Positions 1 to 38,291 of a stretch of DNA of 38,291 nucleotides are shown piece by piece (the first letter of the stretch is position 1; every line of letters starts with the position of its first letter). A program made the position numbers and the translations under genes. Origin of the DNA: a virus. The stretch is taken from positions 1-38,291 of IMG/VR virus record IMGVR_UViG_3300044712_000427. One strand, 5' to 3'. The notes beneath the pieces are model-generated. The model searched no databases and was not told the origin of the DNA. It saw only the letters and a program-made list of their open reading frames with translations.

Positions 1-127
1 CAAGCGGTCATAAAACATTGGGGTTTAATTTGTTATTCAAACTTTGTACCCCGTGCAAAGTTCGGTTTCGGCTGATAGGTTCGTGGCTCGAAATTCCCAA
101 CGATTTTATACCGCCAGCCGTTAGCAA
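1..127. repeat. 127-bp contig-end copy of 32209-32335
   Basis: Identical over exactly 127 bases to 32209-32335 and then diverging (ATAT here, CAAG there). Together with the 127-bp match at the other contig end it indicates a k=127 assembly overlap at a repeat, not a natural short terminal repeat: the two contig ends match internal sequence, not each other. Confidence 0.9.
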
Positions 128-129
128 AT
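1..129 (-). other. attC-like recombination site (5' part cut by contig start)
   Basis: Read on the minus strand, a core box GCTAAC (120-129 on plus as GTTAGCAAAT) follows the stop of the 132-467 gene. A hairpin arm GGCGGTATAAAATCGTTGGG follows, then a spacer of about 75 nt, then the opposing arm near 3-24. Bases 1-127 are identical to 32209-32335, where the complete site ends in the second core GTTATATACC. The core GTTAGCAAAT is the inverted copy of ATTTGCTAAC at 476-485, so the two bracket the gene between them. Seen in sequence: arms and cores. Inferred: integron-type attC. Confidence 0.6.
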
Positions 130-131
130 AT

Positions 132-467
132 TTAAGAGCCAATAATATCGTCAAGTTGTTTATGAAATTTTAAAGTAGCCTCTAAAAATTGCATAACTTC
201 TAAATTTTTATTATTATCAATAATATCAACTATTAAAATTTTTGAGGCTTCGAGTTGACCTGAAATATTCGTTATTTTGTTTTTAAGTTTTTTAAAATCG
301 TTCATTGTTAATAAAGGGCATTTGGTATGAACTCCTAAAACAATACCTCTATTATCTAATTCGCAATTAAGCCTACTACACCATAATTTTCCGTTTTTGT
401 CTTCGTTGTAATTAGTGTAAAATTCTGGACATTGCTTACAATAATTTATCTCTGCTAATCTTTTCAT
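132..467 (-). CDS. small Cys-rich protein in a cassette
   Basis: 111 aa, ATG start at 467. The N-terminal 55 residues hold a cysteine cluster: CKQCPEF, then WC, then CEL and KCPLL. This could bind a metal, but no family name can be given. The C-terminal half is predicted helical and Lys/Leu-rich. The CxxCP...WC...C pattern resembles the 64-aa product of 34099-34293, so the two may be diverged relatives. The gene is bracketed by a 10-bp inverted pair (ATTTGCTAAC 476-485, GTTAGCAAAT 120-129), the arrangement of a gene cassette with its own attC. Function unknown. Confidence 0.75.
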   Translation of the reverse strand: MKRLAEINYCKQCPEFYTNYNEDKNGKLWCSRLNCELDNRGIVLGVHTKCPLLTMNDFKKLKNKITNISGQLEASKILIVDIIDNNKNLEVMQFLEATLKFHKQLDDIIGS

Positions 468-475
468 AATAAAAC

Positions 476-607
476 ATTTGCTAACACATTACAGAAGCAA
501 AGCGGGGCAATGTGGTTTGTTAATATTTGTGTTCTTTGTTACTTTTCATCGGTTGATACATTCGCAACTTCTAAACCCGCTCTGCTCCTGTAATCACCGT
601 TACCTGC
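476..607 (-). other. attC-like site between the 607-897 and 132-467 cassettes
   Basis: A long imperfect hairpin fills the gap. The arm ATTACAGAAGCAAAGCGGG (488-506) opposes CCCGCTCTGCTCCTGTAAT (576-594), matching 16 of 19 when reverse complemented. The cores on the minus strand are GCAGGTAAC just after the TAG stop of the 607-897 gene and GTTAGCAAAT just before the 132-467 gene. Size and layout fit attC. The strand-specific core pair argues against a simple terminator, and no U-run follows the hairpin. Confidence 0.65.
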
Positions 608-897
608 TATTTTAAATAACGTACTTTGACAATTGACCCGTTAGGCATAAATGCTGGCACAGGTACATAGGTTATTGAATTGCCGTGATACCCACATTCA
701 TAACATCCACCGCCATCACATCCAGTGCAAGTGTGCGAATATTTATATGGATACGATAATTCACCATTCCACTCTTCCCATTTATGTCTTCTATCTAATT
801 TTAGTGTTTTTACGGCATGTTCAACAGAATCAAAAACATCAGGTAGCACAGTATTAGCGTTATTGCCGTTTTCGTGGTTATTTGAAGTATTTTCCAT
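607..897 (-). CDS. small zinc-finger-like protein with cassette leader peptide
   Basis: 96 aa, ATG at 897. Residues 1-18 are a hydrophilic leader ending NNANTVL; the body carries CTGCDGGGCYECGYHG, a DnaJ-type CxxCxGxG-like cysteine cluster that could bind zinc. The leader DNA is similar (21 of 25 nt) to the leader of the 28198-28770 gene. The cassette core lies inside the gene at the V-L codons (GTGCTACC, 842-849 on plus), and its partner core GTTACCTGC follows the stop at 599-607. The start codon therefore lies within the upstream attC-like hairpin (849-961). Molecular role unknown. Confidence 0.7.
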   Translation of the reverse strand: MENTSNNHENGNNANTVLPDVFDSVEHAVKTLKLDRRHKWEEWNGELSYPYKYSHTCTGCDGGGCYECGYHGNSITYVPVPAFMPNGSIVKVRYLK

Positions 898-974
898 TTT
901 ATTAAATGTTTAGTAAATTGATAATTAAGTGGTTTCTAATCGGCAACAAACGCCAATACTCAAACGTTGCCATA
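842..974 (-). other. attC-like site containing the start codon of the 607-897 gene
   Basis: Minus-strand arm GAGTATTGGCGTTTGTTGCCG (941-961) opposes CGGCAATAACGCTAATACTG (849-868). They pair over about 20 positions with two mismatches and one bulge. The 72-nt spacer (869-940) contains the ATG at 895-897, and the 3' arm encodes residues 10-16 of that gene. Cores are GGCAAC near 966-971 and GTGCTACC at 842-849; the second is a degenerate GTT core. Same layout as the sites at 32573-32716 and 33372-33507. Confidence 0.55.
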
Positions 975-981
975 ATTGCCA

Positions 982-1019
982 GATTTATAACACAGGTCAA
1001 CCGACGACCGTTATAAATC
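982..1019. repeat. 10-bp perfect inverted repeat
   Basis: GATTTATAAC (982-991) and GTTATAAATC (1010-1019) flank 18 nt that contain a smaller GGTC/GACC pairing. The TAA stop of the 1011-1172 gene lies in the right arm, as expected of an attC R'' box. It may be a degenerate or minimal attC or a weak transcript-end hairpin. Confidence 0.5.
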
Positions 1020-26293: not shown

Positions 26294-26342
26294 CATTTAT
26301 AAAGATATGTTATACTTTTATGGCATTTAGCAACTAGTTATA
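26294..26342 (-). repeat. 49-bp conserved array 3' flank
   Basis: 44 of 49 bases identical to 31778-31826 (and to the copy at 38185-38233). On the minus strand it begins with the cassette core TATAAC, contains TTGCTAAA and GTATAACATAT, and ends at an ATG. It immediately follows the last cassette of each array, so it may be a half-attC or an array anchor. Confidence 0.65.
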
Positions 26343-26347
26343 GCCAA

Positions 26348-26698
26348 TTAAAGCACCGAATCATAATTAGTGCCTCTATCGTCATAATCCCATTTAGAAT
26401 CAAGCTCATAATATTCTTTTTTTGATTGGTGGTATTCGATTCCTTTTTGCAATTCTTTAATTTGAGAATTAAGTTTATCTATTTTATTTTGCCTTTGCTC
26501 TGAAATGTATTTTTGTGCATCATTAAGCGTTTCAAAATATCTATCTGAAGTCATAGATAAGCATACCCTCCAATTATACTCCGTACCAGCACTACGCAAA
26601 GCCCTAACAAATGCGTAACTATCAGTTAATTTAACGCAATCCCTTTCCCATATTCTAACTAAATCATCCTTTACAATATATACTTTAAAAAACTCCAT
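26348..26698 (-). CDS. cassette gene, coiled-coil hypothetical protein
   Basis: 116 aa, MEFFKVYIVKDDLVRIWERD. Small alpha/beta N-terminal half followed by a coiled coil (NKIDKLNSQIKELQKGIEYH) and an acidic C-terminus (WDYDDRGTNYDSVL). Bracketed by the best cassette core pair in the window: TTAACTGGCTATAAC (26709-26723) and GTTATAGCCAATTAA (26337-26351), 14 of 15 complementary. Function unknown. Confidence 0.7.
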   Translation of the reverse strand: MEFFKVYIVKDDLVRIWERDCVKLTDSYAFVRALRSAGTEYNWRVCLSMTSDRYFETLNDAQKYISEQRQNKIDKLNSQIKELQKGIEYHQSKKEYYELDSKWDYDDRGTNYDSVL

Positions 26699-26714
26699 AT
26701 CTATAAAATTAACT

Positions 26715-26806
26715 GGCTATAACACACGGTATAAAACATGCCGTGACAAGCCTGTATATAATCTGAAACATTCTACATCGGCACGTTTCATACCGCCAAC
26801 GTTAGC
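26715..26806 (-). other. attC-like site
   Basis: Minus-strand order: core GCAGCTAAC (the TAA stop of the 26802-27176 frame is inside it), arm CGGTATGAAACGTGCCG (26795-26779), spacer, arm CGGCATGTTTTATACCG (26743-26727), core GTTATAGCC. The 17-bp arms match at 15 positions. Total about 92 bp, in the attC size range. Confidence 0.68.
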
Positions 26807-26853
26807 TGCGATAACAAATAGCCTGCTTCAACGAATAGATTCTCATTGCTCCA
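26798..26853. repeat. shared cassette 3' end (copy 1)
   Basis: 51 identical bases with 28194-28244, then one mismatch and four more matches. It encodes the C-terminal MRIYSLKQAICYRS of two otherwise unrelated proteins and includes the attC core GCTAAC. Confidence 0.9.
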
Positions 26854-27176
26854 GTAAGTAAGCAGTAATCTTTAGCGTGTTTTTCAACTACTGTTAAATA
26901 ACCATAAGGCACTTCAACAACCTTTGCCCCATACTCAATACATTTTAGCGTGTTTTGGTGCATCTCTTTACGTTTTGCACAAAATATTGTAGCTTTTTTA
27001 TTTACGCTTTGGCAGTAAGCAGATAAGGCTATTTGAAAGCCACCATAAACAGGCGAAGCATAAACATATTCCAAATCATCCCCAATTATTGAAGGTATTA
27101 AAATTGACTTTGTGCCTCCAGTTAGTAAATCATCTCTCAATATATTCACTCCTTTGTGTTGCTCTATTGTTATCAT
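26802..27176 (-). pseudogene. truncated PLP-fold protein with a foreign C-terminal tail
   Basis: 124 aa. Residues 1-110 resemble the N-terminal third of a phage-borne PLP-dependent fold-type II enzyme (ACC deaminase/threonine dehydratase style): LRDDLLTGGTKSI with the expected lysine, YASPVYGGFQIALSAYC, KATIFCAKRKEMH, EYGAKVVEVPYGYL. Full-length relatives are about twice as long, from general recall. After CLLTGA the frame runs into MRIYSLKQAICYRS, identical to the nuclease gene's end at 28198. Best read as a 3'-truncated chimera; probably not an active enzyme. Confidence 0.65.
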
Positions 27177-27177
27177 C

Positions 27178-28041
27178 TTATTGTTTTTTAAATATTAATA
27201 CGTTTTCGTGAACTTTAGTTAATTTGCCACCAGCTTCAAATATTTTACCAGCCCTTAACATTGCAGTTCCTAAAGGTTGCAATAAAATAGCTTCATTGTA
27301 TAAACCAGCACCAGCATTTATAAAAGCCAGTTTTGTATGGCTTATAAAATCTCTATAAAAGCCCTTTTTATCCCTAATATCTCCAACCACAAAACAAGCA
27401 TAACCACCGCCTTTTAATTTAGCCACTGCCTTTTTTATTATTTCAGCATACACTTTTATAAATTCGTTGTATTCCATTGTGCTTAAATCTTCTTTCATTT
27501 CGCTGTAAACTTCCAAATCAGCATAAGGTGGGCAACTAAAAACTAAATCATACATAGGTATTAATTCCGTTAAAACAACATTACTATCCCCCACATAATA
27601 TTGTGGTTGCCTGTTTACTGGTAATAGTTTTATTGCTTGTTCTCTATTGCTATCTATTTGCTCCTGCCTTATATCTATTCCAGTATAATTATAGCCTAAA
27701 TAATTAGCTACAATTCCACGAACCGAGCCACCAGCAAAAGGGTCAAGTATCGTTCCATTTTCAGGACAATACCAATTATAAATAAGTTCACATAATGCAG
27801 GGTCAAATATTGACACTTCTGGCATTGATTTTCTGCCATATTTATCGCCATCAAATGAATTATTTATTACAACAACTCCTTCTCTACCTAAATGGCTTTC
27901 AATACCAAGTTGTTTCCATTGGCGTTTTCTTGTTTGCCAACTACCACTCTTTGTGTCTAATACGCTAAAAGGCGGCTCCATAAATTTGTCCCTTAACAGA
28001 ACATCTTTTACAATTTCGTTTCCGAATAAATCTACTTCCAT
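27178..28041 (-). CDS. DNA methyltransferase (N4-cytosine/N6-adenine type)
   Basis: 287 aa. AdoMet motif I ILDPFAGGSVRGIVANYLGY, followed by YTGIDIRQEQ, and catalytic motif IV FSCPPYADLEVYSE (CPPY), the signature of amino-methyltransferases. N-terminal EPPFSVLDTKSGSWQTRKRQ is typical of phage DNA modification methylases. No partner nuclease of a restriction system is adjacent, so it probably protects phage DNA. It is the first gene of a two-gene cassette; the second is broken. Confidence 0.85.
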   Translation of the reverse strand: MEVDLFGNEIVKDVLLRDKFMEPPFSVLDTKSGSWQTRKRQWKQLGIESHLGREGVVVINNSFDGDKYGRKSMPEVSIFDPALCELIYNWYCPENGTILDPFAGGSVRGIVANYLGYNYTGIDIRQEQIDSNREQAIKLLPVNRQPQYYVGDSNVVLTELIPMYDLVFSCPPYADLEVYSEMKEDLSTMEYNEFIKVYAEIIKKAVAKLKGGGYACFVVGDIRDKKGFYRDFISHTKLAFINAGAGLYNEAILLQPLGTAMLRAGKIFEAGGKLTKVHENVLIFKKQ

Positions 28042-28102
28042 ATTTTCTATTTTTTAATGATTTAATGATTAATTCCCACCGCACAAAAAATTAAAACAAA
28101 CA

Positions 28103-28202
28103 GCGTATAACACGGGTTTTGTGCAATTTGCCCTATTAACTTTCTGCTATAATTTGAGCGTTTGTGCAAGGGCAAACTGACACAAAGCCCGAAAACGTTA
28201 GC
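28103..28202 (-). other. attC-like site
   Basis: Minus strand: core GCAGCTAAC, arm CGGGCTTTGTGTCAGTTTGC (28191 downward), short spacer, arm GGGCAAATTGCACAAAACCC (28133-28114), core GTTATACGC (28111-28103). The arms pair over about 21 bp with two mismatches and a bulge. It separates the nuclease cassette from the methyltransferase cassette. Confidence 0.68.
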
Positions 28203-28249
28203 TGCGATAACAAATAGCCTGCTTCAACGAATAGATTCTCATTGTTCCA
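28194..28249. repeat. shared cassette 3' end (copy 2)
   Basis: 51 bases identical to 26798-26848. Here the encoded tail follows RYEIARLGT smoothly and looks native to the nuclease protein, so this copy, or a relative of it, is the likely donor. Confidence 0.9.
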
Positions 28250-28770
28250 AGTCTCGCTATTTCGTAGCGTTCTTTTTCTGACCATTTATAGTCAAATAAT
28301 TTTTTGGGTTTTTTTGCTTGATAAAATTTCCTTACTCCCGGATATTCATACTTAGCTAAAACCCATAATCCGCAAAAATCAGGAATTATTTCTAATGCGT
28401 ATTCTTTCAATTGTTCAGGCACGGCATAGTAGAAATATTTAAACTTACCATAATATCTTTCAAATCCAGTCTTACCGTTGTGCATTTGTTCAAACTTACA
28501 ATGTTGCGGTTTTTTAAAATCTGCTTTCAAATCTGATTTGCTTACTTTGATTTCAAAACCGTAAGCATAAAGGCTGTTTGTAAGTACAAGCATATCGGTT
28601 TCGAAAGGCAATAAACACATCATGTTTGTAATGTTTGGGACTATTAAGTTTTGCCTGAAATTAAATTCTTTCATAATAGCCAGTTCAATATCCAAACAAG
28701 TTACCGCAGCTAACACAGTATTTGCGTCATTGGCGGTTACGTTCTCGCTGGATAGGTTATCGGTTTTCAT
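28198..28770 (-). CDS. MmcB-like PD-(D/E)XK nuclease in a cassette
   Basis: 190 aa. Core ETDMLVLTNSLYAYGFEIKV SKSD gives the D...ExK catalytic pattern of PD-(D/E)XK nucleases; YYGKFKYFYYAVPEQLKEYA and IPDFCGLWVL match the MmcB/DNA-repair nuclease style. The leader (MKTDNLSSENVTANDANTVL) resembles that of the 607-897 gene. Cassette cores CGCAGCTAAC (28705-28714) and GTTAGCTGCG (28197-28206) are a perfect 10-bp pair, with the 5' one inside the ORF at codons VLAAV. Probable role in DNA repair or host DNA degradation. Confidence 0.7.
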   Translation of the reverse strand: MKTDNLSSENVTANDANTVLAAVTCLDIELAIMKEFNFRQNLIVPNITNMMCLLPFETDMLVLTNSLYAYGFEIKVSKSDLKADFKKPQHCKFEQMHNGKTGFERYYGKFKYFYYAVPEQLKEYALEIIPDFCGLWVLAKYEYPGVRKFYQAKKPKKLFDYKWSEKERYEIARLGTMRIYSLKQAICYRS

Positions 28771-31632: not shown

Positions 31633-31777
31633 CAGGTTTTTTTAAAACCTTAATTTCTTAATGTTGGTCGTAGTCAACAATGCAAATATTGCTAAATTCA
31701 ATTAAATATTACACAATTTCATAAATAATTTATACAATATAATTTATTTTAACAATACTATATATTTGTATTTTAGG

Positions 31778-31826
31778 CATTTACAAAAATATGTTATACT
31801 TATATGGCGTTTAGCAATTAGTTATA
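31778..31826 (-). repeat. 49-bp conserved array 3' flank
   Basis: Second copy of the element at 26294-26342 (44 of 49 identical). On the minus strand it ends at ATG followed by CCTAAAATACAAATATATAG, the start of the 37969-38187 gene, which here breaks off after eight codons and stops soon after. Confidence 0.65.
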
Positions 31827-32169
31827 TACCACTTAAAGAAAGTTCCTCGCCTGTAAGTGCATAGTATAAATTTTGTAGTTGGTGAGCAAAATGAATTTCG
31901 GCAATCCATGTTTCAGTTTCACCAAAATAAACCTGACCTTCTACGCTAATTATAAATTCGCCAATATGATAATAACCTACAGTCCCTTCTTCTAAACCAA
32001 ATTTAATAAGCCAGCCTTCATTTAATTTAATCGGAACGGCTTGCCATGTAGTAAGGCATTCAAAGTCAAATACAATATTCCCTGACCTTAATAGCTCAAG
32101 TACCTTAATTACTTTATTTGAATATTTTTCTATAAAAACATTCCCTATTCTTAATTCATTTGCTTTCAT
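31822..32169 (-). CDS. cassette gene, conserved Bacteroidetes phage protein
   Basis: 115 aa, MKANELRIGNVFIEKYSNKV ... WLIKFGLEE ... FAHQLQNLYYALTGEELSL. This is a recurrent small protein of Bacteroidetes phages and mobile elements (N-terminal NELRIGN, C-terminal HQLQNLYxALTGEEL), function not established. The cassette boxes GTTATATACC (31821-31830) and GGTATATAAC (32200-32209) are a perfect 10-bp inverted pair, extending to 14 of 15. A second copy exists at the contig ends. Confidence 0.8.
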   Translation of the reverse strand: MKANELRIGNVFIEKYSNKVIKVLELLRSGNIVFDFECLTTWQAVPIKLNEGWLIKFGLEEGTVGYYHIGEFIISVEGQVYFGETETWIAEIHFAHQLQNLYYALTGEELSLSGI

Positions 32170-32199
32170 ATATTTTTGTTTAAATAATTAATAATAAGC

Positions 32200-32337
32200 G
32201 GTATATAACAAGCGGTCATAAAACATTGGGGTTTAATTTGTTATTCAAACTTTGTACCCCGTGCAAAGTTCGGTTTCGGCTGATAGGTTCGTGGCTCGAA
32301 ATTCCCAACGATTTTATACCGCCAGCCGTTAGCAACA
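32200..32337 (-). other. attC-like site (complete copy)
   Basis: Minus strand: core TGTTGCTAAC, arm GGCGGTATAAAATCGTTGGG, spacer of about 75 nt, arm CCCCAATGTTTTATGACCGC, core GTTATATACC. About 135 bp. Copy at 1-129. The arms match at 17 of 20 positions. Confidence 0.7.
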
Positions 32338-32341
32338 AGCA

Positions 32342-32623
32342 TTAAAACGGCGTTGGTACTTCTGGACAATCTGGAAGCTCTTGCCATGCGTAAATATATT
32401 CAGGAATTTTTAAATCTGAATCATTTGCATAGCAATCTTTCATATAATCTCTTGTTTCAAGTGAGCCAATCCATTTTTTGCCGTTCCAAAATCCCTGAAT
32501 TGGCTTCTTGTCGTATTTATATGCAATTAACACTTCTTTATTAACTTCTGGCAGTTCAGGTAAAAAATGCCAGTTGCTAACAACAGGTATATTCAATTGC
32601 GGTTTTTGTGTTTCTTTTGCCAT
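32342..32623 (-). CDS. cassette gene, DUF551-like protein
   Basis: 93 aa. WHFLPELPEVNKEVLIAYKY, GFWNGKKWIGS and YIYAWQELPDCP match the WxxLPxxxxxVLV...W...VxxWxxLP pattern of DUF551-type phage proteins, function unknown. The first 15 residues (MAKETQKPQLNIPV) are encoded inside the upstream attC-like hairpin. Core GTTGCTAAC (32573-32581) lies in the ORF and pairs with GTTAGCAAC (32328-32336), 9 of 9. Confidence 0.75.
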   Translation of the reverse strand: MAKETQKPQLNIPVVSNWHFLPELPEVNKEVLIAYKYDKKPIQGFWNGKKWIGSLETRDYMKDCYANDSDLKIPEYIYAWQELPDCPEVPTPF

Positions 32624-32716
32624 TTGTTCTCGTATTTAAGTTATTACTAATTTGATAATTCCGTGCTTCGTAGTCCGCAACTGAAATATACCTGCGGACG
32701 TTGTGTGCAATTTTGC
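32573..32716 (-). other. attC-like site containing a start codon
   Basis: Minus-strand arm CAGGTATATTTCAGTTGCGG (32696-32677 region) opposes CCGCAATTGAATATACCTG (near 32602-32584): 17 of 19 pairs with one bulge. Between the arms lie the ATG at 32621-32623 and the first codons of the DUF551-like gene. Cores: CACAAC (32705-32700) and GTTAGCAAC (32581-32573). Confidence 0.65.
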
Positions 32717-32717
32717 C

Positions 32718-32978
32718 CTAAGCATACCACACGCATTCACAGTCTGTGCATTTATCGGCATCTGGCCCCCATGCAATAATATTTCTACTATAACAATTAG
32801 GGCAAAACTGTCCGCTTCGCCACACAACATGCGGTATACGCAATTTTTTTAACTCCGCTTCTGCAAAATCACTAAGTTTCTGCTTACCAAATATTGGGGC
32901 CACTTGTCCATGTATCTCTTTATACCAATGGTCTGCTATCTTATTAGCTATCAACCTTTCTATTTCTTTTGTTTTCAT
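32718..32978 (-). CDS. two-part protein: helical N-terminus plus cassette-borne zinc ribbon
   Basis: 86 aa. Residues 1-50 (MKTKEIERLIANKIADHWYK ... KKLRIPH) are helical; residues 51-86 are a zinc ribbon, CPNC...CTDC. The cassette core CACACAAC (32821-32828) falls exactly between the parts and pairs with GTTGTGTG (32700-32707). The mobile unit would therefore be about 120 bp and encode only the zinc ribbon, with the N-terminal domain inside the upstream attC-like site. Confidence 0.7.
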   Translation of the reverse strand: MKTKEIERLIANKIADHWYKEIHGQVAPIFGKQKLSDFAEAELKKLRIPHVVWRSGQFCPNCYSRNIIAWGPDADKCTDCECVWYA

Positions 32979-33035
32979 ATTCGTTCTATTTATCCGTTAA
33001 AAAAACATGACGCATACCGCCGTCCGTTAGCGGGC
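32821..33035 (-). other. long attC-like site enclosing 50 codons
   Basis: Minus-strand arm GGCGGTATGCGTCA (33021-33008) opposes TTGCGTATACCGCA (32843-32830): 11 or so pairs. The spacer holds the ATG and first 47 codons of the 32718-32978 gene. Cores: GCCCGCTAAC (33035-33026) and GTTGTGTG (32828-32821). The weakest hairpin of the set but with matching cores at both ends. Confidence 0.45.
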
Positions 33036-33434
33036 ATTTAAAATCACCGCCTGATAGTTTTGTACAGCTTGATACTTTTTTACTGCCTTATAAAATTTCT
33101 TCCAGTTAGAAACCTGTCCATTAGTTGTTATATTTTGCAATATTTCTTCTGCTGCATATAAGGCATCTGATTTAGTCTGTAATTGTTTTAAAATATACAA
33201 TATTGCTTTTATCGTATCTCCTTCAATTGTCAAATACTTAGGTTTATAAATTTGCTTTACTGTATCGGAATTTGTCGAATATGGAGCATGTAAAATCAAT
33301 TGAAATTCTGGTTTTGGTAAAGAATCGGCATTTATAAATTGAATTTTTTGACCAAATGAAAATGAATAAACGCCCGCTAACAATGCACATAAGCAAAGCC
33401 TGGTTAAATACGTATTTAAAGTTTTGTTTTTCAT
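33027..33434 (-). CDS. cassette gene, secreted-type protein
   Basis: 135 aa from the ATG at 33432-33434; a longer frame uses TTG and runs through the attC. The N-terminus (TYLTRLCLCALLAGVYSFSF then GQK) is a Sec signal peptide with Q-rule end. The mature part is predicted helical (ILYILKQLQTKSDALYAAEE; NWKKFYKAVKKYQAV). Cassette core GCCCGCTAAC (33372-33381) lies inside the signal sequence at LLAGV and pairs perfectly over 10 bp with GTTAGCGGGC (33026-33035), where the stop codon also lies. Confidence 0.65.
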   Translation of the reverse strand: MKNKTLNTYLTRLCLCALLAGVYSFSFGQKIQFINADSLPKPEFQLILHAPYSTNSDTVKQIYKPKYLTIEGDTIKAILYILKQLQTKSDALYAAEEILQNITTNGQVSNWKKFYKAVKKYQAVQNYQAVILNAR

Positions 33435-33507
33435 ATTATTGTTATTTATAAATTGATAAAATAGTTCTTTGAAATCCGGCTCAGCGCATGTGCTGGACGT
33501 TATACGC
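33372..33507 (-). other. attC-like site containing a start codon
   Basis: Minus-strand arm AGCACATGCGCTGAGCCGG (33494-33476) opposes CCAGGCTTTGCTTATGTGCA (33403-33384). The ATG at 33432-33434 and 11 codons lie between the arms. Cores: GCGTATAAC (33507-33499) and GTTAGCGGGC (33381-33372). Confidence 0.6.
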
Positions 33508-33509
33508 AA

Positions 33510-33896
33510 TTAAAATGGCAAGTCATCGCCACTTAAAAGCATATTGATTTGAGATTTAATTTCATAAATCTGAATATCCATTACCTTTTTAGCTTGATTG
33601 CAATATAAATCCTTTTGCCTGTGCGTAAATCCAGTTTTATTTAAATCAAAAAGCATTTTAGCCGCTTCCAATTGAGCTATATTTTTTGAAATAAATTCTT
33701 TGAAATTTTTTCTCAGTTCAGCGAGTTTGTTTTTTTCTTCATTTAACAATCTATTTAAGTTGTTTTCTTTTTCAGTCCAGTCCTCTTTAAATTGTTGATG
33801 ACATGCCATTCTAAGTATATTTACTATTTTTTCGGCTTTTTCTCCTTCTACTCCATTATCGAGTAAAATATCTAAAACAGGTTCTTTTTTTAACAT
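33510..33896 (-). CDS. cassette gene, coiled-coil protein with SSB-like C-terminal tip
   Basis: 128 aa. Helical throughout, with a long coiled coil (KENNLNRLLNEEKNKLAELR) and a C-terminus LLSGDDLPF. The acidic DDLPF end is the interaction peptide of bacterial SSB proteins, bound by primase, RecO, PriA and others. Without an OB-fold this may be an SSB-tip mimic that recruits or blocks those partners (inference). Bracketed by GCGTATAAC (33926-33934) and GTTATACGC (33499-33507), 9 of 9. Confidence 0.7.
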   Translation of the reverse strand: MLKKEPVLDILLDNGVEGEKAEKIVNILRMACHQQFKEDWTEKENNLNRLLNEEKNKLAELRKNFKEFISKNIAQLEAAKMLFDLNKTGFTHRQKDLYCNQAKKVMDIQIYEIKSQINMLLSGDDLPF

Positions 33897-33925
33897 TGTA
33901 TTTATTTTAAAAATTAATAATAAAA

Positions 33926-34062
33926 GCGTATAACAACGGCTTATAAAACATAGGCGGTTCAGTGCGTTGCCAACTGTATCGCTCGTATCAAGTTCGGTGA
34001 CGTATGATAGTTTCGCGGCTTCGTATCGCCTACGATTTTATAGCCGCGTCCGTTAGCAAACA
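33926..34062 (-). other. attC-like site
   Basis: Minus strand: core TTTGCTAAC, arm CGGCTATAAAATCGTAGGCG (34046-34027), spacer of about 70 nt with its own small hairpins, arm CGCCTATGTTTTATAAGCCG (33956-33937), core GTTATACGC. The arms pair at 17 of 20. About 137 bp, close to the upper usual attC size. Confidence 0.72.
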
Positions 34063-37968: not shown

Positions 37969-38187
37969 TTAATCAAATAACCAATCTGGATAGTTTGGAT
38001 ATTCTTTGTTTGTTTTTTCTTTATAATAAAAATCGTTTGCTTTATTTATAACTGCTATTTCTCCGCCTTCTCGTAACAAATTAACAGCGTTTACTTTATG
38101 TAATATTAAATAGTTCCAAGCTTTTTCGCAACGTAATGATATTTTTATTGCATAAACTTTTTTGCTATATATTTGTATTTTAGGCAT
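37969..38187 (-). CDS. hypothetical small protein at the duplication edge
   Basis: 72 aa, MPKIQIYSKKVYAIKISLRC ... NYPDWLFD. Its first eight codons lie inside the duplicated segment; the copy at 31758-31780 keeps only these before running out. The ATG is the one that ends the 49-bp conserved flank. This copy is intact and probably ancestral. Confidence 0.65.
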   Translation of the reverse strand: MPKIQIYSKKVYAIKISLRCEKAWNYLILHKVNAVNLLREGGEIAVINKANDFYYKEKTNKEYPNYPDWLFD

Positions 38188-38291
38188 TTACAAAAATATG
38201 TTATACTTATATGGCGTTTAGCAATTAGTTATATACCACTTAAAGAAAGTTCCTCGCCTGTAAGTGCATAGTATAAATTTTGTAGTTGGTG
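38165..38291. repeat. 127-bp contig-end copy of 31758-31884
   Basis: Identical to 31758-31884; the preceding base differs (G here, A there). Marks entry into the 578-bp duplicated segment at the contig end. Includes a third copy of the 49-bp flank (38185-38233). Confidence 0.9.
38229..38291 (-). CDS. partial second copy of the 31822-32169 gene
   Basis: Only the last 20 codons (HQLQNLYYALTGEELSLSGI) and the stop are in the window; the rest is expected across the contig junction, followed by the attC-like site at 1-129. Identical to 31822-31884 over the visible part. Confidence 0.8.
   Translation of the reverse strand, partial: HQLQNLYYALTGEELSLSGI

Follow-up and report, generated by a model that had tools for sequence, protein, structure and literature searches.

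Clusters of attC sites that lack an integron integrase gene (CALINs) are already known from phages (Qi et al., 2023; PMC9892861). In that work, phage attC sites recombined with IntI1 in E. coli; five of six were functional with IntI1, including one of the two from Polaribacter phage P12002L. In a separate study, LMO9 phages that plate poorly on LMO6 were reported to lack a specific methyltransferase, and morran9-1 and lillamy9-1 are the two phages that were re-grown on LMO6 (Nilsson et al., 2020; PMC7077304). The main text of that paper nowhere mentions integron, cassette, or attC.

Here, we analyzed a viral DNA stretch of 38,291 nucleotides (IMG/VR record IMGVR_UViG_3300044712_000427, positions 1 to 38,291), hereafter called the window. 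The window contains clustered attC sites (at least two) and no integron integrase gene, as in a CALIN, and the sites have R''/R' boxes, internal L arms, and an unpaired loop. We consider it probable that its three integron-type arrays (A, B, and C) form a platform for phage cassettes on which an integrase supplied in trans acts. The carrier is a tailed phage, probably of Bacteroidota.

A cassette array at the contig start

A preliminary description of this DNA had placed a cassette array at the contig start. The array is real, with integron-type R boxes and an attC-like site at 476–607, and comprises the following features:

1–131, plus strand: 3' portion of the attC belonging to cassette 31822–32169 (second copy), with core GTTAGC at 120
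120–599, plus strand: cassette with ORF 132–467 (minus strand, reversed), closed by its own start and R''
476–607, plus strand: attC of the 132–467 cassette, with 19-nt arms
599–897, minus strand: terminal cassette of array C, ORF 607–897, with an R''-like box (839–847) within the ORF
982–1019, no strand assigned: perfect 10-nt inverted repeat GATTTATAAC/GTTATAAATC with an 18-nt loop

ORF 132–467 does lie between fully matching boxes, as had been proposed, given that the cassette's own start GTTAGCAAAT (120–129) pairs with the R'' ATTTGCTAAC (476–485) at 10 of 10 positions. A 10-of-10 R-box pair of that kind was present in 47 of 5000 dinucleotide shuffles of 1–1019; across the whole window, five pairs with at least three G/C were found compared to a shuffle mean of 0.98 and maximum of four (300 shuffles), placing the closures above shuffled sequence. 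The 19-bp arms reported for site 476–607 were confirmed at 488–506 and 576–594, with 89% complementarity. This site gave z = −2.5 when folded as single-stranded DNA and is oriented on the plus strand by the AACA/AACG rule; its position-weight score of −0.6 gave no call.

The description of the 607–897 gene held only in part. The boxes GTTACCTGC (599–607) and TCAGGTAGC (839–847) match at 7 of 9 bases as claimed, or 8 of 10 over ten, but the second box is internal to the ORF and the pair therefore does not enclose the gene. The proteins of 132–467 and 607–897 had no significant matches in Pfam or PHROGs. The inverted repeat at 982–1019 may be a mini attC-like right end of array C, though this assignment is uncertain. 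A half-site, ACAGTATTWGCGTYATTG, is common to the right ends of arrays A (28705–28770) and C (839–897), and encodes a similar N-terminal peptide, NANTVL, at both.

Array C had also been said to continue, in a circular genome, into a second copy of the 31822–32169 cassette. Both contig ends are exact repeats of exactly 127 nt: positions 1–127 are identical to 32209–32335, where the corresponding attC spans 32207–32330, and the other end is as follows:

38165–38291, plus strand: contig end and start of the second copy of cassette 31822–32169, identical to 31758–31884

Such repeats would fit a de Bruijn assembly (k = 127) whose contig was interrupted within another copy of 31758–32335. If circular, the contig misses at most about 324 bp, and the closed circle would measure 38,615 bp. 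Continuation into the second copy is the likeliest assembly reading, with the exact end repeats standing and the circular join remaining presumptive. A mixture of two strains, with one copy each at different arrays, would also give exact 127-nt overlaps of both ends with one internal segment, in which case the second copy would be an assembly effect. However, a single linear contig with both ends in one repeat fits a 38,615-bp circle with two copies; moreover, the landing sites of arrays B and C sit in different contexts, and hence both sites exist. We regard a strain mixture as rather unlikely.

Cassette closure in arrays A and B

The other two arrays comprise the following features:

26294–26342, plus strand: array A landing site, with 90% identity to those of arrays B and C
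26337–28770, plus strand: array A cassettes, with ORFs 26348–26698; 26802–27176 plus 27178–28041; and 28198–28770
26721–26803 and 28109–28199, plus strand: attC sites of array A
31778–31826, plus strand: landing site of array B, followed by a truncated start of the small gene that adjoins the array C landing site
31821–32328, plus strand: array B cassette with ORF 31822–32169 (phrog_10066), closure 10 of 10, attC at 32207–32330
32328–34054, plus strand: further array B cassettes, starting at 32328, 32700, 33026, and 33499
32579–32702, 32826–33028, about 33379–33501, and 33932–34054, plus strand: further attC sites of array B

Our attC detector, which like the ORF assignment is a heuristic of our own rather than IntegronFinder, with ORFs picked by length, identified window sites at 26721, 28109, 32207, 32579, 32826, 33932, and 483; it gave no hits in 396 kb of shuffled sequence. 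Nine of the ten window cassettes (counting the weak terminal one) had a start matching their own R'' at 8 or more of 10 positions. The exception is start 26801, which is unpaired with R'' 28111 (6 of 10), and array A therefore looks chimeric. Two neighboring cassettes of this array (26793–26853, 28189–28249) have their first 53 nt in common, and genes 26802–27176 and 28198–28770 thereby end in the same C-terminus, MRIYSLKQAICYRS. ORF 27178–28041 is a DNA methyltransferase, and ORF 26802–27176 looks like part of a threonine dehydratase/PLP-dependent enzyme (phrog_7093, 9e-12), which is unusual for a cassette in a phage and may be a remnant.

The TAA stop codon of the other strand is often supplied by the core GTTA. 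Several cassettes have R'' within the ORF and a start codon in the attC loop, among them 33027–33509 in the window, 372–665 in contig L077, and several in contig L133. Within 33372–33508, ORF 33027–33509 begins inside an attC, which would encode an N-terminus resembling a signal peptide.

Cassette genes are reversed relative to attC

Each site is laid out on the plus strand as R''(..TAACA), arm, loop, arm, and (CG)TTA. In Vibrio and Shewanella prophages and Bacteroidota intI loci, which served as controls because their gene direction is annotated, the top strand of attC shows an identical asymmetry. A contig of an uncultured Bacteroidetes bacterium (L075) contains an attC that is 83% identical to 32201–32333 and in the same orientation, with an alignment score of 173 compared to a shuffle maximum of 72; its ORFs run with attC, whereas those of the window run against it. 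Among four genome matches to the attC pattern, this one is real and those in L073, L074, and L076 were rejected as chance-like, falling within coding sequence.

All sites are intergenic on one strand of the phage genome, where terminators are expected, and they might in principle be attC-resembling hairpins of that kind or linkers for modular exchange rather than integron sites. Their long central loops, the pairing of starts with a distant R'', and the conserved asymmetry are not features of terminators; both readings were dropped on these grounds and are almost certainly wrong.

Canonical cassettes carry their ORF along attC; those of the window and related phages are reversed. Across 14 phage records, 42 cassettes were reversed, with one canonical and one tied, compared to a mostly canonical 16:6 (plus one tie) in bacterial Bacteroidota intI arrays (Fisher 1.7e-9), a small control of 23 cassettes in six loci in which five of the six reversed cassettes come from one array. 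That intI-linked bacterial array (L210, 5939–9253) may have traded cassettes with phages. A position-weight test trained on annotated arrays, with a leave-one-array-out agreement of 26/30, placed 53 phage sites opposite to the ORF and seven on the same strand; six window sites were opposite and 476–607 alone received no call.

A landing site and its neighboring gene

A 49-nt element flanks each of the three arrays on the attI side (26294–26342, 31778–31826, and 38185–38233). At array C, it adjoins a small gene:

37969–38187, minus strand: small gene adjoining the landing site, with related genes likewise placed in L133, Moomin phages, and other contigs
38185–38233, plus strand: attI-like landing site of array C, in ORF direction AACTAATTGCTAAACGCCATATAAGTATAACATATTTTTGTAAATG, ending at the start codon of 37969–38187

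The element is attI-like by position and by the differences between isolates, and bears no resemblance to the attI of the bacterial loci examined. In L133 and in Flavobacterium Moomin phages, this position beside the array is likewise occupied by small genes that begin similarly, with pairwise BLASTP values among the neighbor genes of 8e-4, 2e-3, and 2e-8. Since these genes were first found by looking beside arrays, the L133 gene was queried against viral contigs, yielding 47 loci (42 distinct), most with cassettes upstream. An automatic count placed the end of 28 arrays no more than 150 bp from the neighbor gene. Upstream of it were 71 cassettes (61 distinct, a sample selected by the neighbor gene itself), all reversed; none occurred downstream across the 47 viral loci. 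The leader, with GTATTAC or a near form, is kept in 18 aligned sequences including the window. A strict pattern for the window landing site matched no viral contig, and relatives surfaced through the neighbor gene alone.

The neighbor protein was not found in 296 Bacteroidota genomes, a search that lacked a positive control and shows little. Sub-threshold DUF6290/CcdA matches suggest a ribbon-helix-helix fold, which stays a suggestion given that nothing convincing was matched in the PDB by sequence. In the strongest form of the exchange-platform reading, the product of this gene would control insertion.

Related phages differ by whole cassettes

Long arrays also occur in related viral contigs. 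Six related contigs have one locus in common with differing content, and L048 has no cassette there. Relatives by terminase (about 65% identity) had no array in the stretches compared, save one isolated closure in L011. Twelve Flavobacterium isolates have in common a landing site consisting of CATGTAATATTGTA immediately before GTT. For nine of the 12, arrays were resolved by chaining from 23 units, and the longest ORF was opposite to attC in each; the mumin and mymlan arrays were not resolved in this way, and unit W of hemulen/stinky is probably several cassettes. Moomin phages L223 and L228–L239 have long arrays rich in different DNA methyltransferases, and no attC is marked in those of their deposited annotations that were examined.

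A single 342-bp cassette at the landing site separates isolate snork6-1 from snork6-2, between flanks with identities of 100% and 99.96%, and a single 439-bp cassette separates it from sniff9-1, between flanks with an identity of 100%; cassette differences between filifjonk9-1 and mumin9-1 fall at the boundary before GTT. Such differences could stem from homologous recombination alone, acting on relic arrays whose attC sites were acquired once with the cassettes. Cassettes and attC sequences are indeed common to many phages, which recombine readily; some junctions have core sequences of about 12 nt in common, and the 53-nt common start in array A is consistent with homologous exchange. Against this, single whole cassettes are gained or lost exactly before GTT, with short shared sequence and flanks that are 99.96–100% identical, and variation is prominent beside the landing site. 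We consider relic arrays very unlikely. Since related phages differ by whole cassettes at such sites, it appears that small genes, e.g., those for DNA-protecting enzymes, are traded among the viruses of this group through a recombinase that they do not themselves encode.

One variable cassette, termed T, encodes a methyltransferase. It is missing from morran9-1, lillamy9-1, stinky9-1, and hattifnatt9-1 and occurs in the five LMO6 isolates whose sequences were examined. We infer that cassette T is the methyltransferase of Nilsson et al. (2020); its absence fits the published plating defect.

The cassette-array reading of the preliminary description was right, and its support now goes beyond the boxes on account of the 83% identical bacterial attC, the closures between starts and R'', the viral contigs with long arrays, and the isolates that differ by cassettes. 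Its author had overlooked the reversed ORFs, the attI-like landing site of each array, and the location of the 607–897 box within the ORF.

Proposed recombination by an integrase in trans

No tyrosine recombinase was detected in the window, with no match to PF00589 or TIGR02249 where positive controls matched, and the intI gene of a complete integron is absent. IntI matches above cut-off were likewise absent from 25 phage records (the window, four Moomin phages, and 20 further, many of which may be fragments). Integron integrases were detected in 84 of 296 Bacteroidota genomes. In the L075 genome, the IntI matches fell below the family cut-off. Given the lack of IntI in the phage records tested, its occurrence in bacteria, and the activity of phage attC sites with IntI1, the simplest reading is that an integrase acting in trans recombines the phage cassettes. 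The putative link of phage cassettes to IntI draws on the form of attC and on the findings of Qi et al. (2023).

The same cassettes and landing site could instead be moved in trans by a host Xer-type enzyme or an unrecognized phage enzyme. Such a recombinase would be in keeping with the lack of intI in the phages tested, a landing site unlike the bacterial attI sites examined, and the virus-specific small gene adjoining it. However, attC form, R-box pairing, and asymmetry are of integron type, one attC of the window has 83% identity to that of a bacterium, and five of six phage attC sites worked with IntI1 (PMC9892861). We judge this explanation unlikely and favor an integron integrase in trans.

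The structure, closures, orientation, landing site with neighbor gene, integrase absence, and whole-cassette differences between isolates were all observed directly. Each array begins at a phage-borne attI-like landing site, with the core GTT as the insertion point. Most cassettes consist of one reversed gene, with its stop at or near the core GTTA and its start beside R'' or inside attC. Transcription is directed toward the landing site, which would place inserted cassettes last in a phage operon, at its 3' end. In the mechanism that we propose, recombination would be performed by an integron integrase that the host or a co-resident element supplies, and cargo such as methyltransferases may aid against host restriction. 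More broadly, we lean slightly toward a widespread integrase-less platform of Bacteroidota phages, made up of an attI-like landing site, a virus-specific small gene, and reversed cassettes, that exploits integrases in trans, swapping small genes such as anti-restriction methyltransferases during infection.

Integron sites had been known from phages, seemingly as rare and incidental features. In the present data, they make up a platform that recurs, with a dedicated landing site, a reversed-orientation gene pool, and turnover between isolates on two hosts sharing >99% ANI. Virulent phages would thereby gain a site-specific means of altering their accessory genes and would need no recombinase gene of their own. 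The platform also offers a possible mechanism for the difference in plating reported by Nilsson et al. (2020) and renders the use of bacterial integrases by phages open to direct testing.

Comparison with known systems

The CALINs described in phages by Qi et al. (2023; PMC9892861) resemble the window in having attC arrays, no intI, virulent phage carriers, and methyltransferase cargo. In Polaribacter phage P12002L, which carries such a CALIN, the cassettes were also reversed in our analysis; divergent attC directions were described for this phage by those authors. The accessible text of that study makes no mention of general ORF reversal, a conserved landing site, a recurring neighbor gene, or turnover between isolates. 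Reversed ORFs, the landing site, and the neighbor gene were not found described in the open-access literature, and their novelty is provisional.

Chromosomal integrons of Bacteroidota have the same attC family (83% identity) and the same pairing of start and R'' as the window. Their ORFs run mostly along attC, in arrays beside intI and attI; in contrast, the window has reversed ORFs, no intI, and three landing sites in one genome. The Flavobacterium (Moomin) phages from the Baltic Sea have a landing-site sequence that differs from that of the window, but their arrays are of the same type, with reversed cassettes, and a related gene adjoins the landing site.
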